In this document: one piece after another, positions 8,247 to 13,042 of the stretch
How the letters are laid out: each line of letters starts with the position of its first letter
Numbering within the stretch: position 1 is the first letter of the stretch
Assembly (NCBI RefSeq): GCF_000190595.1
Contig: NC_015167.1
Location: 3,456,501-3,520,500 of the forward strand
From: Cellulophaga lytica DSM 7489
Lineage (GTDB): Bacteria > Bacteroidota > Bacteroidia > Flavobacteriales > Flavobacteriaceae
Direction of reading: 5' to 3'
Length of the DNA stretch: 64,000 nt
Notes under the pieces: generated by a model
The model's input: only the letters and a program-made list of their open reading frames with translations
Told to the model about the DNA's origin: nothing
The model's database searches: none
Position numbers and translations under genes: made by a program

Positions 8247-8289
8247 TTGCATTTAAGTATAATTATACTATTGCATCAATGTTGCATTA
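8247..8289 (+). promoter_or_regulatory. Candidate Fur-family operator, repeated TTGCAT boxes
   Basis: Three TTGCAT boxes occur at 8247, 8271 and 8282. The last two are 11 bp apart (TTGCATC, AATG, TTGCATTA), one helical turn. The same arrangement (TTGCATT, CCAG, TTGCATTA) lies in the promoter of the Fur-family gene at 12633-12651. The 8282 box supplies the -33 TTG of the promoter, so bound repressor would block RNA polymerase. The 8270-8288 segment is also an imperfect 19-bp palindrome. Confidence 0.6.
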
Positions 8290-8311
8290 AAGCAAAATAA
8301 TAATATATTTG
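8282..8311 (+). promoter_or_regulatory. Promoter of the metal-uptake operon
   Basis: TTG at 8282-8284, a 19-nt spacer, then TATATTTG at 8304-8311: an exact match to the Bacteroidota promoter (TTG, about 19 nt, TAnnTTTG). The expected start is near 8315, leaving a leader of about 50 nt before ATG 8365. A perfect 8-bp palindrome GTTGCAAC lies in that leader at 8333-8340. Confidence 0.7.
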
Positions 8312-8364
8312 CACTTTAATTAACAAAACTAAGTTGCAACAACAAAAAACTGTAACGGTTATTA

Positions 8365-8688
8365 ATGAAAATATATCAGTTTAAAAATAGTATTACATAT
8401 GTGTTGCTTGCTTTTTTTATTGTCATAAAAATTGCAGGACTACATTCTATATCTCATATTAATGAGCATACTGTAGATGGTGACCATCATGAATGTACTA
8501 TTTGTGATTATATAAATACCCATAACACTATACCCGTTGTACCTACACAGGAAGCATATACTAAAACCTGTATTACAACTTACAATCCTGTAAAAAAAAT
8601 ACAAGTAAGCTATAACAATCAGTATTTTAAAACAGAAAGTAACACACTACTATTCTCTAGGCCTCCTCCTCTTTTTAGCCTCACATAA
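8365..8688 (+). CDS. Small Cys/His-rich membrane-anchored protein, possible metal binder
   Basis: A 107-residue protein with one N-terminal hydrophobic helix or signal (YVLLAFFIVIKIAGLHSIS). Next comes a cluster of possible metal ligands, HSISHINEH...DHHECTICDY, with a CxxC motif. The tail RPPPLFSLT is Pro-rich. Similar small proteins with a CxxC and a Pro-rich tail precede TonB receptors in Bacteroidota, as far as I recall, but I cannot name the family with confidence. It is first in the operon behind the repeated TTGCAT operator, 161 nt before the TonB receptor gene. Metal handling is inferred from ligands and neighbours. Confidence 0.65.
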   Translation: MKIYQFKNSITYVLLAFFIVIKIAGLHSISHINEHTVDGDHHECTICDYINTHNTIPVVPTQEAYTKTCITTYNPVKKIQVSYNNQYFKTESNTLLFSRPPPLFSLT

Positions 8689-8783
8689 ACCTTTATTGTT
8701 TGGTATTTAGGTGTAATAAAAATTAAATTACATACAGAATTGATTCTACATTATTTGCCTTAATACCAAACAACTACAAAAAA

Positions 8784-8817
8784 GTGTATACCCTTATTGT
8801 CTACAAGGCTTGTACAC
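8784..8817 (+). other. Hairpin between small ORF and TonB receptor gene
   Basis: An imperfect inverted repeat: GTGTATACCCTT with AAGGCTTGTACAC around an internal loop. No T-run follows, so it is not a clear terminator. It could adjust expression of the receptor relative to the first gene; function unknown. Confidence 0.3.
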
Positions 8818-8849
8818 TAAACATTATTAAAATTATATAACAGCTAATT

Positions 8850-11219
8850 ATGCTTTATAAAATGCTGAGTATATGCTTATTTATTAGCGTATGCTCTATT
8901 GCAACTGCACAAAATTCTTTTAAAATTAAAGGAATTGTGCTAGATGCCAACACTTTACAACCTGTAGAAGGTGCTAATATTATTGGAGATCACCTATTTG
9001 CAGTTTCTTCTTCTAAAGGTGAATTTACCATAGAAGATAATAAAAAACAAGCTAGTTCTTTTACCGTATCTCACGTTGGTTACAGCACAAAAGAGTTTAC
9101 TGTTATCCCTAAAAATACACAGGAACGCATTAAAATTTACTTAAAAGAAACTTCTACTGTTTTAAACGAGGTTAAAGTTGTTGGTACTTACCATAATAAA
9201 GACAAAGAAACACCTATGGTTACGCAAACGGTTACCAAAAAGTTTCTTAACAATAACAGAGAAAACAGCTTAATGCAAACATTGAGTAAAATACCTGGCA
9301 TAAGCACTATAAACATTGGCTCCGGACAAAGCAAACCTGTTATAAGAGGACTTGGTTTTAATAGAGTTGCGGTTGTACAAAACGGAATAAAACACGAAGC
9401 ACAACAATGGGGCAATGATCACGGATTAGAGATAGACCAACAAGGAATTGAAAATATACAAATTATAAAAGGTCCGGCTTCATTACTTTTTGGATCAGAT
9501 GCTATTGCTGGTGTGGTTCATATTCAACCAAATAAAGTCCCATTACAAAATTCTTTTAATGGCGAAGTAAATATTCTTGGAGAAAGTAATAACGACTTAT
9601 TGGGCATTTCAGCAGGTATATCAGCTAGAAAAGAAAAATGGTTTTACCGTACTAGAGTAACGTACAGAGATTATGGTGACTATAAAGTACCTACAACTAA
9701 AATTAACTATGAAAATTACGTTTTTGAGCTTCACAATAATAATTTAAGAAACACTGCCGGCAGAGAAGCTAACGCTAGTGTTAGTATTGGCTACGTAGAC
9801 AATACCATAAAAACGGAAACACTATTTAGTAATGTAAATGCTAAAAACGGATTTTTTGCAAATGCACATGGCTTAGAAGTTAGAACGTCTAAAATAGATT
9901 ATGATACCTCTAACAGAGACATAGATCTTCCGTACCATAATGTAAATCATTTTAAAATTAGCAATAATACTACGGTAAACACCGGTAATCACGTATTGCA
10001 TTTTGATCTTGGTTTTCAAAATAATAAAAGAGAAGAACACTCAGAGCCTATTCCGCATGGGTATATGCCCAAGCCGCCAAATACTAAAGAACGTGTTTTT
10101 ACTAAAAACACCTACTCTTTAAATGCCAGAGATGCATTTAATATTAACAACAAGCATAATGTTGTTGTGGGTGTAAATTTAGAGCACCAAAAAAATACTA
10201 TTGGTGGTTGGGGATTTTTAATTCCGGAATATAGCCGTTTTACTGCTGGTGCTTTTGGCTACAATCAATATAAAATAAATAAAAACTGGCACATTTTAGC
10301 TGGTGCTAGGTATGATTATGGCGTTCTTAAGACTAACGCTTATAACGATTGGTTTAGATCTACTGTAAAAAATGAAGATAATACCACTTCTCAGGTATAC
10401 TTGCAAAGAGCAAAAAACAAAACACTAGATTTTAAAAATATAAGCGCTTCATTTGGTGTTAGTCACATTAAAAACAACACCACGTACAAAGTAAACTTAG
10501 GCAAAAGTTTTAGAATGCCACTTGCTAACGAGTTGGCTTCAGACGGTGTAAACTACCACATGTATAGGTTTGAGAAAGGTAATCTTGACCTAAAACCAGA
10601 GGTTGCTTATCAACTAGACCTAGATATAAATCACACTAAAAAACAGTTTAGTTTAGGCATTAGTCCTTTTCTTAATTTATTTGAGAACTACATCTATTTA
10701 AATCCTACCTCTAATTATTTTGAAACCTTACAAATTTACGAATACACACAAAGTAAAGTTTTTAGAATTGGTGGCGAACTTAGTGCTAGCACTACTGTTA
10801 TTAAAAACCTAGAGTTGACAGCATCTGCAGAATATGTGTACTCCAGACAAACAAGCGGATTAAAAAAAGACTTTACACTTCCGTTTTCGCCTCCTTTATC
10901 TGGACTCTTTTCTGCGAGCTATAAAATTAAAGATTTTTCAGTTTTTAAAACACCTGCAATTAACGCGGACTATAGAATTACTGCTGCACAAGAAGATATT
11001 GTACCACCAGAGCAAACAACAGACGGTTACAATGTGCTACATATGTCATTTACATCAAAATTAGACATTTTTAAAAATAGTGCACCTATAGATGTACGGC
11101 TAAAATTAAACAACGTATTCAATACCACATATTACAATCACACTAGTTTTTATAGGCTGATAGACGTTCCTGAAGCTGGTAGAAACATTTCGGTGTCATT
11201 AACAATTCCATTTAAATAA
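8850..11219 (+). CDS. TonB-dependent outer-membrane receptor (probable metal uptake)
   Basis: A 789-residue receptor. It has a signal peptide (MLYKMLSICLFISVCSIATA), a CarboxypepD_reg-like beta-sandwich (about 25-105, GIVLDANTLQPVEGANI), and a plug (about 115-230, MQTLSKIPGISTINIGSGQ and IQIIKGPASLLFGSDAIAGV). A beta-barrel follows to a C-terminal aromatic strand (ISVSLTIPFK). Such receptors import scarce ligands using TonB energy. His-containing stretches (HEAQQWGNDHG; EEHSEPIPHG) and the His-rich lipoproteins downstream suggest a transition metal, with zinc most likely given the Fur-family regulator; heme or a siderophore remains possible. The DUF4625-like gene starts 28 nt after its stop. 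Confidence 0.88.
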   Translation: MLYKMLSICLFISVCSIATAQNSFKIKGIVLDANTLQPVEGANIIGDHLFAVSSSKGEFTIEDNKKQASSFTVSHVGYSTKEFTVIPKNTQERIKIYLKETSTVLNEVKVVGTYHNKDKETPMVTQTVTKKFLNNNRENSLMQTLSKIPGISTINIGSGQSKPVIRGLGFNRVAVVQNGIKHEAQQWGNDHGLEIDQQGIENIQIIKGPASLLFGSDAIAGVVHIQPNKVPLQNSFNGEVNILGESNNDLLGISAGISARKEKWFYRTRVTYRDYGDYKVPTTKINYENYVFELHNNNLRNTAGREANASVSIGYVDNTIKTETLFSNVNAKNGFFANAHGLEVRTSKIDYDTSNRDIDLPYHNVNHFKISNNTTVNTGNHVLHFDLGFQNNKREEHSEPIPHGYMPKPPNTKERVFTKNTYSLNARDAFNINNKHNVVVGVNLEHQKNTIGGWGFLIPEYSRFTAGAFGYNQYKINKNWHILAGARYDYGVLKTNAYNDWFRSTVKNEDNTTSQVYLQRAKNKTLDFKNISASFGVSHIKNNTTYKVNLGKSFRMPLANELASDGVNYHMYRFEKGNLDLKPEVAYQLDLDINHTKKQFSLGISPFLNLFENYIYLNPTSNYFETLQIYEYTQSKVFRIGGELSASTTVIKNLELTASAEYVYSRQTSGLKKDFTLPFSPPLSGLFSASYKIKDFSVFKTPAINADYRITAAQEDIVPPEQTTDGYNVLHMSFTSKLDIFKNSAPIDVRLKLNNVFNTTYYNHTSFYRLIDVPEAGRNISVSLTIPFK

Positions 11220-11247
11220 ATATAAACAACAATTAAAATTAAAAACA

Positions 11248-12036
11248 ATGAGAACAAACATTAAAATGTCCAACTTTAAACTTTTAGCAATAGTTGCTTT
11301 TCTAGGACTCTTTTTACAATCATGTAGTAGTGATGATGACAGTAACTCTTTAAACGCGCCAATTATTACTGATTTTGAGTATGGTGAAGGTGGTGATCAT
11401 TCTACAGAACAATACGTTTATAAAGGATCTGACATTCATTTAGAAGCAAAAATTAATGCTGAAGCTACAGTAAAAAGTATTTCTATTAGCATTCATGCAC
11501 ACGACTTAGAAATAGGTGAAGATGAAGTTGACTGGGATTTTGAAAAAGTATTTACAGATGAAAAATACCTAGCAATAAACCCTACTTTTCACGAACATGT
11601 AGATGTACCTGCAAACATACCTGCTGGTGAGTACCATATAGAGTTGGTAGTTACAGATGAAGAAGGTAATAGTACAGAAATTGAAGGCCATATAGATGTT
11701 AAAGATCCTATTACTTTAGGTGAAATGTCTATTGATGAAAGCGTTGCTAGAGGAACAGATTTTCACGCAGAATTTATGATTAATGCTGTTAATGGCATAC
11801 ATAATATAACTGTAGATATTCATGCTCACGGACTTACTTTAAAAGACGGTGAAGTAGAATGGGATTTTGAAAAAGAATATTTAGAAAAGTACCATGAGAA
11901 AACTGAAGCAGAATTTCATGAACATATAGATGTACCTGCAACTGCACCTGCTGGTGAATACCATATGGTTTTTACTGTTGAAGATGAAGACGGTAACACC
12001 AAAAAATACGATACACATATTGATGTAACTGAGTAA
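11248..12036 (+). CDS. DUF4625-like His-rich lipoprotein with two internal repeats
   Basis: A 262-residue lipoprotein with signal and lipobox ending LFLQSCSSDD. The mature part contains two copies of a roughly 110-residue module, about 38-150 and 155-261. Both carry the signature xIHAHxLxxxxxEVxWDFEK, then FHEHxDVPAxxPAGEYH and a D-E-x-G-N loop. The paired histidines (HAH, HEH, EYH) recur at matching places, as expected for a metal site. It follows the TonB receptor directly and is followed by a hairpin and a second, single-module relative. Role inferred: surface or periplasmic metal capture. An internal ATG at 11266 is an alternative start. Confidence 0.75.
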   Translation: MRTNIKMSNFKLLAIVAFLGLFLQSCSSDDDSNSLNAPIITDFEYGEGGDHSTEQYVYKGSDIHLEAKINAEATVKSISISIHAHDLEIGEDEVDWDFEKVFTDEKYLAINPTFHEHVDVPANIPAGEYHIELVVTDEEGNSTEIEGHIDVKDPITLGEMSIDESVARGTDFHAEFMINAVNGIHNITVDIHAHGLTLKDGEVEWDFEKEYLEKYHEKTEAEFHEHIDVPATAPAGEYHMVFTVEDEDGNTKKYDTHIDVTE

Positions 12037-12040
12037 TAAA

Positions 12041-12077
12041 AAATACCGCATAGAGTAAAACACGCTATGCGGTTTTA
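12041..12077 (+). terminator. Hairpin between the two DUF4625-like genes
   Basis: ACCGCATAG (12045-12053) pairs with CTATGCGGT (12065-12073) around an 11-nt loop and is followed by T4. It may act as an attenuating terminator, giving less of the second lipoprotein. Confidence 0.7.
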
Positions 12078-12089
12078 AAATTCTTAAAA

Positions 12090-12569
12090 ATGAAAATTAC
12101 ACTTAAATACGTCTTCTTTTTATCGTTGCTTGCTATTATTACTTCTTGTTCTAGTGATGACAGCAATGATAAGGATGAAGAAAAACCAACAATTAGTATT
12201 AATTATACTCAAGGTTTTCCACAGCCTTGTACGCTACTAAAAAAAGGAGAAACCTATAACTTTAGAGCGCAGGTTACAGATAATAAAGCTTTAGCTTCTT
12301 ATAGCTTAGATATGCATCATAATTTTGATCATCACACCCATGATGATCAAGAAGGAGAGTGTAATTTATACCCTGTAAAACAAGCCGTAAACCCGTTTAT
12401 TTATATGGAGAATTTTACCGTTCCAGAAGGTTCTACCAGTTATGAAATAAACGTAAGTTTAACAATTCCGGATGATATTGATACGGGTGATTATCATTGT
12501 GCTTATTCCGTTACAGATAAAACAGGATGGCAATCTAGAACATCTATAGACATAAAAATAGTAGATTAG
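12090..12569 (+). CDS. DUF4625-like His-rich lipoprotein, single module
   Basis: A 159-residue lipoprotein (lipobox LLAIITSCSSDDSND). One module resembles those of the preceding gene: INYTQGFPQPC, an ALASYSLDMHHNFDHHTHDD segment very rich in histidine, and a closing DIDTGDYHCAYSVTDKTGW strand pair. Two Cys residues at the module edges (PQPCTLL, EGECNLY) could form a disulfide or bind metal. It is the last structural gene before the Fur-family regulator. A metal-binding role is inferred from composition and operon. Confidence 0.75.
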   Translation: MKITLKYVFFLSLLAIITSCSSDDSNDKDEEKPTISINYTQGFPQPCTLLKKGETYNFRAQVTDNKALASYSLDMHHNFDHHTHDDQEGECNLYPVKQAVNPFIYMENFTVPEGSTSYEINVSLTIPDDIDTGDYHCAYSVTDKTGWQSRTSIDIKIVD

Positions 12570-12632
12570 TTTTGCTATAAATTGCTACTCAACTGCTTGT
12601 TAATTAAGTTAAAAATAGACGGTTTCTTTTTT

Positions 12633-12651
12633 TTGCATTCCAGTTGCATTA
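12633..12651 (+). promoter_or_regulatory. Candidate autoregulatory operator of the Fur-family gene
   Basis: TTGCATT, four bases (CCAG), then TTGCATTA: the same 11-bp direct repeat as at 8271-8289 in the operon promoter. It overlaps the -7 element (12650-12657), so binding would shut the gene's own promoter. Confidence 0.6.
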
Positions 12652-12657
12652 TTTTTG
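12650..12657 (+). promoter_or_regulatory. -7 box (TATTTTTG) of the Fur-family gene
   Basis: TATTTTTG fits TAnnTTTG and lies four bases before ATG 12662 (TGGT then ATG). That arrangement predicts a leaderless message and rules out the upstream TTG at 12644 as start. A -33 TTG at 12633 is closer than usual (14 nt spacer). Confidence 0.55.
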
Positions 12658-12661
12658 TGGT

Positions 12662-13042
12662 ATGGGAGTGATTAGAAAAACAAAATCGGTTAAAATTTTA
12701 CTTGATGAATTTGATAAGAGTTCAGCGGCTATTTCTGTAACTGCTTTAATAGAACGTTTTAGCTCTAAAATGAATAAAACCACTATTTATCGTGTTTTAG
12801 ACAAGCTTGAAGACGATGGCTATTTGCATTCTTTTTTAGGTAAAAACGGTCACAAATGGTACGCAAAATGCAACGGATGCTCATCTAGCAATCATTCAGA
12901 TGCCCACCCTCATTTTCAATGTTCTAACTGTGGTAAGGTAGATTGCCTGCCTGCAGATGTTGTAATACCTAAAATTCCTAACAGAATTGTAGATGTTTCA
13001 CAAGTACTGTTACAAGGTAAGTGTGAGCAGTGTTACTCATAA
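12662..13042 (+). CDS. Fur-family metal-responsive repressor (Zur-like)
   Basis: About 126 residues. The winged-helix DNA-binding half holds ISVTALIERFSSKMNKTTIYRVLDKLEDDG. The dimer and metal half has HPHFQCSNCGKVDCL, plus upstream CNGCSSS and terminal KCEQC cysteines of the structural zinc site. Fur-family proteins repress metal-uptake genes when their metal is bound. The position after His-rich lipoprotein genes and the shared direct-repeat operator make a zinc regulator the best guess. Start chosen at ATG 12662 because the -7 box overlaps the TTG further upstream. Confidence 0.85.
   Translation: MGVIRKTKSVKILLDEFDKSSAAISVTALIERFSSKMNKTTIYRVLDKLEDDGYLHSFLGKNGHKWYAKCNGCSSSNHSDAHPHFQCSNCGKVDCLPADVVIPKIPNRIVDVSQVLLQGKCEQCYS

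Follow-up and report, generated by a model that had tools for sequence, protein, structure and literature searches.

Zur regulons described in Proteobacteria and Cyanobacteria combine a Fur-family repressor, paired palindromic operators and autoregulation. The divergent zur/znuA promoter of Paracoccus denitrificans carries two Zur sites, TonB receptors are among the Zur targets in Caulobacter, and the targets found in other phyla include a TonB receptor, AztD, a FolE paralogue and COG0523 proteins. The ZnuD operon of Neisseria (PDB 4rdr) encodes a TonB-dependent receptor together with His-rich loops and partners. The Zur protein of Corynebacterium glutamicum uses a 10-1-10 direct-repeat site at efflux genes (PMC6103462). 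Bacteroidetes are not mentioned in a 2018 review of Zur regulons, and no earlier description of a Bacteroidetes Zur motif was found in the open papers searched.

The locus analyzed here lies in the window, by which we mean the whole 64-kb stretch of Cellulophaga DNA under study. A TonB operon is followed there by a Fur-family gene, and the locus resembles the proteobacterial and cyanobacterial regulons in its Fur-family regulator, paired palindromic operators and predicted autoregulation. Taken across relatives, the putative regulon also shares with them the divergent zur/target arrangement of P. denitrificans, the TonB receptor target of Caulobacter, and an AztD-like protein, a FolE paralogue and COG0523 proteins as targets. 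ZnuD is the closest solved sequence to its TonB-dependent receptor, which likewise has His-rich loops and partners, and its sites have in common with those of C. glutamicum an 11-bp period and the overlap of the -33/-35 element. From comparisons of sequences across genomes, we consider it very probable that these sites are operators of a zinc uptake repressor (Zur) that the Flavobacteriaceae have and whose gene here is the Fur-family gene at 12662-13042. Table 1 lists the features.

Table 1. Features of the locus and of the predicted regulon (window positions unless marked as genome positions).
Feature	Position	Strand	Remarks
Putative operator O1	8269..8289	+	TATTGCATCAATGTTGCATTA; imperfect dyad, 8/10 mirror pairs; same position in G005, G007, G004 and G036
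-33 element TTG of TonB operon promoter, within O1	8282..8284	+	TTG-N19-TATATTTG
-7 element of TonB operon promoter	8304..8311	+	TATATTTG; Bacteroidetes consensus TAnnTTTG
Putative operator O2	8321..8341	+	TAACAAAACTAAGTTGCAACA; just downstream of predicted transcription start
Small HHxC-type membrane/secreted protein, first gene of operon	8365..8688	+	107 aa, 6 His
TonB-dependent receptor, ZnuD-like	8850..11219	+	Best PDB sequence match ZnuD 4rdr, 8e-21
His-rich DUF4625 lipoprotein, two domains	11248..12036	+	17 His; PF15418, 1e-59
Hairpin between the two DUF4625 genes	12045..12073	+	CCGCATAG..CTATGCGG; stem retained in two relatives
DUF4625 lipoprotein, one domain	12090..12569	+	DMHHNFDHHTHDD; PF15418, 3e-47
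Putative zur operator	12631..12651	+	TTTTGCATTCCAGTTGCATTA; between -33 region and -7 element; left half degenerate in Cellulophaga lineage
-7 element of zur	12650..12657	+	TATTTTTG; 4 nt 5' of ATG 12662
Fur-family protein, putative Zur-type repressor	12662..13042	+	126 aa; PF01475, 9e-9; two structural CxxC pairs, H56, C70/C73, H82, H84
Putative TonB operon operator	genome 3464769		R1 model
Weaker putative TonB operon operator (= window 8321-8341)	genome 3464827		R1 model
Putative zur operator	genome 3469130		R1 model
Putative tandem operators before MerC and second FolE	genome 2489461, 2489499		R1 model
MerC-domain protein and second FolE	genome C1:2489534-2490594 (L036:6535-7594)		MerC PF03203
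Putative operator between Fur2 and TrxB-like gene	genome 1055113		R1 model
Putative operator before His-rich AztD-like lipoprotein	genome 3693151		R1 model

Sites, Promoters and Genes of the Locus

The initial annotation of this DNA had pointed to two copies of a TTGCAT pattern, TTGCATYNNNNTTGCATTA, as the only such pair in the window. Both copies are real, with exact matches at 8271-8289 and 12633-12651, and the window holds no third. A genome-wide scan, which had also been suggested, returned only the same two exact matches in the 3,765,936-base (3.77-Mb) genome, while approximately 0.05 are expected from base composition. When one mismatch was allowed, 2 matches were found in the window (0.08 expected from shuffles), and at up to two mismatches the genome contained 69, compared to 27 for the reversed control. 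At up to three mismatches the window showed no excess (8 observed, 11.4 expected), which counts in favor of two chance matches in an AT-rich genome. However, both exact sites lie within promoters, their number far exceeds the genome-wide expectation, and conservation of the site position in other genera already refutes chance, an explanation that is left with next to no probability. A pattern search with TTGCAACNNNGTTGCAA and three mismatches was too loose to be of use (238 forward matches, 165 in the control).

The sequence TAnnTTTG is the established -7 consensus of Bacteroidetes promoters. As the initial annotation had stated, the first site supplies the -33 element of such a promoter, with the TTG in the right half of O1 located 19 nt 5' of TATATTTG, and the last bases of the second site fall within the -7 element of the Fur-family gene. 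Another site, O2, had not been noticed before. It lies 52 bp downstream of O1 and scores 15.4 bits, in a window where 0.25 sites above 14 bits are expected per 64 kb. O2 is stronger in relatives (TAACGCAACATAGTTGTAATA, TAATGCAATAAAGTTGCAATA), and the O1/O2 pair is retained 51-54 bp apart in the same four genomes that keep O1 in position (Table 1). In front of the regulator gene, the arrangement TAnnTTTG-N4-ATG was found in 25 of 30 zur orthologues, from which the zur mRNA is predicted to be leaderless or nearly leaderless.

The first gene of the TonB operon is kept adjoining the TonB gene in relatives, and its product has no Pfam or NCBIfam match. The TonB receptor matches the NCBIfam ZnuD model with 6e-40 and 137.5 bits, below the cut-off of 950. 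The hairpin between the DUF4625 genes is possibly a partial terminator or a processing site. A long stem (TTGTTTGGTATT..AATACCAAACAA) at 8696-8774, in the gap between the first two genes of the operon (Table 1), is poorly kept in relatives. In two congeners (G002:C34:279488-280510 and G008:C1:4527034-4528059), the gene for the TonB receptor is broken by a TGA near residue 340.

Symmetry of the Putative Operator

Upstream of regulator orthologues the operator takes the form of a 21-23 bp palindrome, TTAATGCAACTnAGTTGCATTAA. Orthologues with near-perfect palindromes in other genera share 48-95% identity with the regulator, and equivalent palindromes precede the gene in Lacinutrix, Kriegella, Algibacter and Maribacter records. 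This palindrome, TAATGCAACTAAGTTGCATTA and its variants, has a core that starts at -29 from the ATG, the place occupied by the zur operator in the window, where perfect palindromes are found in other genera; a second one usually lies at -67, in most cases 38 bp from the first. Most orthologues of the regulator gene are divergent from a MerC-FolE operon, and the palindromes are located in the intergenic gap.

These observations are at odds with the initial annotation, which had taken the pattern for a direct repeat with an 11-bp period that could place two proteins on the same side of the helix. Both copies in the window do read TTGCAT-N5-TTGCAT, and at 12631-12651 the direct matches (7/10) outnumber the mirror matches (5/10). 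Nonetheless, TGCA is self-complementary, and therefore any TGCA dyad at such spacing resembles a direct repeat of period 11. The orthologue sites separate the two symmetries. In about 0.9 of them, the C and G on either side of the centre agree with the mirror partner, the central C/G pair and the A/T pair are mirror-matched in 82-94%, and at no site does the conserved C agree with its direct partner. Among 22 sites in which the half-site G has changed, the mirror partner was altered to fit in four and the direct partner in none, and a test of mutual information gave significant co-variation of mirror columns 7-19 (p 0.02) but not of direct columns. A Zur direct-repeat site overlapping a -35 element is a known arrangement in C. 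glutamicum (PMC6103462), but for the sites described here the dyad in orthologues and the exclusively mirror-wise compensating changes speak against it, and two protomers binding a true direct repeat on one helix face are highly improbable.

Judged from the orthologue sites, the TTGCAT repeat is a slightly worn, degenerate inverted repeat, that is, a mirror-symmetric operator. The wear is in the left half of the window sites, which have TTGCAT in place of TTGCAAC, and in Cellulophaga the left half of the zur site has degenerated to TTGCATTC, a form kept by four species. The two window sites may be used asymmetrically in this genus. A more general warning is that a palindrome can pass for a "direct repeat" when its core is its own complement, as TGCA is.

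The Predicted Regulon

A sequence model, R1, was built from 44 operator sites, all of them from other genomes. Its best matches in this genome include the MerC-FolE tandem, Fur2/TrxB, the AztD-like gene, zur and the TonB operon, although the individual window sites are weak here (E about 0.2 each). The same set of targets recurs across the genus Cellulophaga. The promoter of the MerC-FolE pair also has the TTG-N19-TATATTTG geometry, and its O2 touches the -7 element. The FolE paralogue belongs to the ordinary zinc-type family and not to the zinc-free FolE2, the MerC protein is a candidate zinc carrier, and the AztD-like protein matches PDB 6cmk (1.6e-11) and, below the cut-off of 400, NCBIfam AztD (3e-26, 92 bits). 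In other genomes, genes for COG0523 GTPases and for a His-rich protein have the operator in front of them, and in one genome (L151) three DUF4625 genes followed by the TonB, HisP, FolE and MerC genes are contiguous and face the regulator gene. No ZnuABC operon with the operator was found. The initial annotation had proposed that a single regulator controls the operon and itself. This stands insofar as the same operator precedes both in relatives and tracks the regulator gene in congeners, but the regulon is wider than the locus, reaching MerC-FolE, the AztD-like gene and Fur2/TrxB in this genome and COG0523 GTPases in others.

Further sites at 389750 (in front of a TetR gene), 2027495, 2242170, 3300748, 628921, 532019, 2213109 and 1222085 are inside genes or without support and were dropped, as was a site at 3676311, within a small ORF near an integrase. 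Sites in G012:C14 lie within a gene.

Co-occurrence with the Regulator and Its Paralogues

Operators, counted as present in congeners at E up to 0.05, occurred in 13 of the 13 congeners with the regulator and in none of the five without it (18 congeners; p 1e-4). Across the family they were found in 21/22 genomes with the regulator and in 7/127 without (149 genomes; p 1e-18). Counts that include the zur promoter are partly circular, since zur's own promoter trained the model; with the sites beside the regulator gene left out, the family figures are 8/22 and 7/127 (p 2e-4).

Some of the regulator-less genomes have sites adjoining Fur2 or Czc genes. Furthermore, a similar palindrome, TATTGCGACnnnGTCGCAATA, is found at Fur2 genes, and there is a Zur-type site at Fur2/TrxB as well. 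The protein that binds could then be another of the Fur family, namely Fur2 (genome 1054781), Fur3 (3672194) or the main Fur (288653), with the gene at 12662 as a target only. However, operators persist in seven genomes (G076, G107, G050, G074, G026, G096 and G155) where no protein of the sub-family other than the regulator was found, and G107 has one at a COG0523 gene too. This speaks against a requirement for Fur2 or Fur3 in binding. In addition, none of the five regulator-less congeners has operators, though three of them have Fur3-like genes. It is thus quite unlikely that one of these other proteins takes the place of the protein encoded at 12662-13042, which most probably governs its own gene as well as the His-rich/TonB operon.

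The two paralogues have surroundings of their own. The Fur2 gene (within C1:1054691-1055136; L035, L091; L088-L092, L125-L130) is divergent from a thioredoxin-reductase-like gene and has its own palindrome, TATTGCGAnnnnnTCGCAATA, in addition to the Zur-type site. Given this related operator, Fur2 and Zur possibly share control. Fur3 lies within a CzcA/CzcB/ZntA-type efflux operon (C1:3666052-3675000; L045, L041:4165-4578) whose first gene, coding for a His-rich protein, has a weak TTGCAAC dyad; in G122 and G131 the sequence at this place is TTATGCAACTGGGTTGCAAAA. On an efflux operon, a Fur protein with zinc as its corepressor would act in the wrong direction. It is conceivable, if rather doubtful, that Zur, Fur2 and Fur3 share an operator alphabet (TTGCAAC/TTGCGAC dyads) and form one circuit of zinc uptake, a TrxB-like redox gene and Czc/ZntA efflux; the position of Fur3 on the efflux operon would then require an action opposite to Zn-corepression.

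The Regulator and the Sensed Metal

The regulator belongs to the Fur superfamily (PF01475, 36 bits with a cut-off of 23.1). The structural Cys4 site of Zur is present, with C87/C90 and C121/C124 invariant in 19 sequences. The protein matched the Streptomyces Zur protein ScZur (3mwm) in a phmmer search, and H56, C70, H82 and H84 align with the sensory residues D65, C79, H85 and H87. The Cys and both His are thus retained, and the Asp is replaced by a His that is invariant in the 19 aligned sequences; C70 is missing from two of them, both with a Cys nearby. An AlphaFold model (pLDDT 82.5) gave 57 PDB matches below E 0.001, of which all those listed are Fur-family proteins. The best is the cyanobacterial Zur 7ne9 (8e-8), with Fur structures so close behind that the fold alone leaves the sensed metal unsettled. 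The score against the NCBIfam Zur model PRK11639 is 21.5 bits, below the cut-off of 167; this model covers the enterobacterial type, and therefore the low score excludes that subfamily and not Zur function.

The assignment of the metal rests mostly on the content of the regulon; fold and residues fit Zur. Iron, manganese, nickel or cobalt might be sensed instead and served by the operon, since Fur proteins, like TonB receptors of this class, are used for several metals and the regulator scores about equally with Fur, PerR and Zur models. This is very unlikely: the partners AztD, COG0523, ZnuD and the FolE paralogue are zinc-specific in other bacteria, and the sensory site, with its Cys, resembles that of Zur.

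Discussion

We infer that the regulator binds these sites with zinc as the signal and that binding means repression, in marine flavobacteria very probably of its own gene together with zinc-uptake genes dispersed over the genome. When zinc is plentiful, a Zn-loaded Zur homodimer would bind the dyad TTAATGCAACTnAGTTGCATTAA. In the TonB operon promoter the -33 TTG falls within O1, and O2 is situated just past the start point, so that bound Zur would exclude RNA polymerase, whereas at its own gene the operator between -33 and -7 would bring about autorepression. The positions of the operators are consistent with this mode of repression. When zinc is scarce, Zur would leave the DNA and the ZnuD-like receptor and the His-rich proteins would be switched on, as would MerC with the second FolE and the AztD-like zinc chaperone. 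The Flavobacteriaceae thereby gain a testable zinc regulator, operator and regulon, and the DUF4625 and MerC-domain proteins, of unknown function, are given a probable zinc role.

This would be a known kind of system, a Zur regulon, in which the operator sequence and several targets appear to be undescribed in the open papers searched. The core found here, TGCAAC-n5-GTTGCA, is unlike the published E. coli Zur motif, TRWNAYRWTATAWYRTNWCA. In comparison with the regulons of Proteobacteria and Cyanobacteria, the targets here include MerC and DUF4625 genes, no operator-bearing ZnuABC operon takes part as far as could be found, and the zur mRNA is predicted to be leaderless. The receptor stands apart from Neisseria ZnuD in its approximately 137 bits to the NCBIfam model (cut-off 950) and in its companions, which are DUF4625 lipoproteins and a small His protein. 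In C. glutamicum apo-Zur represses efflux genes, while in this Cellulophaga genome the sites are dyads located at uptake genes.
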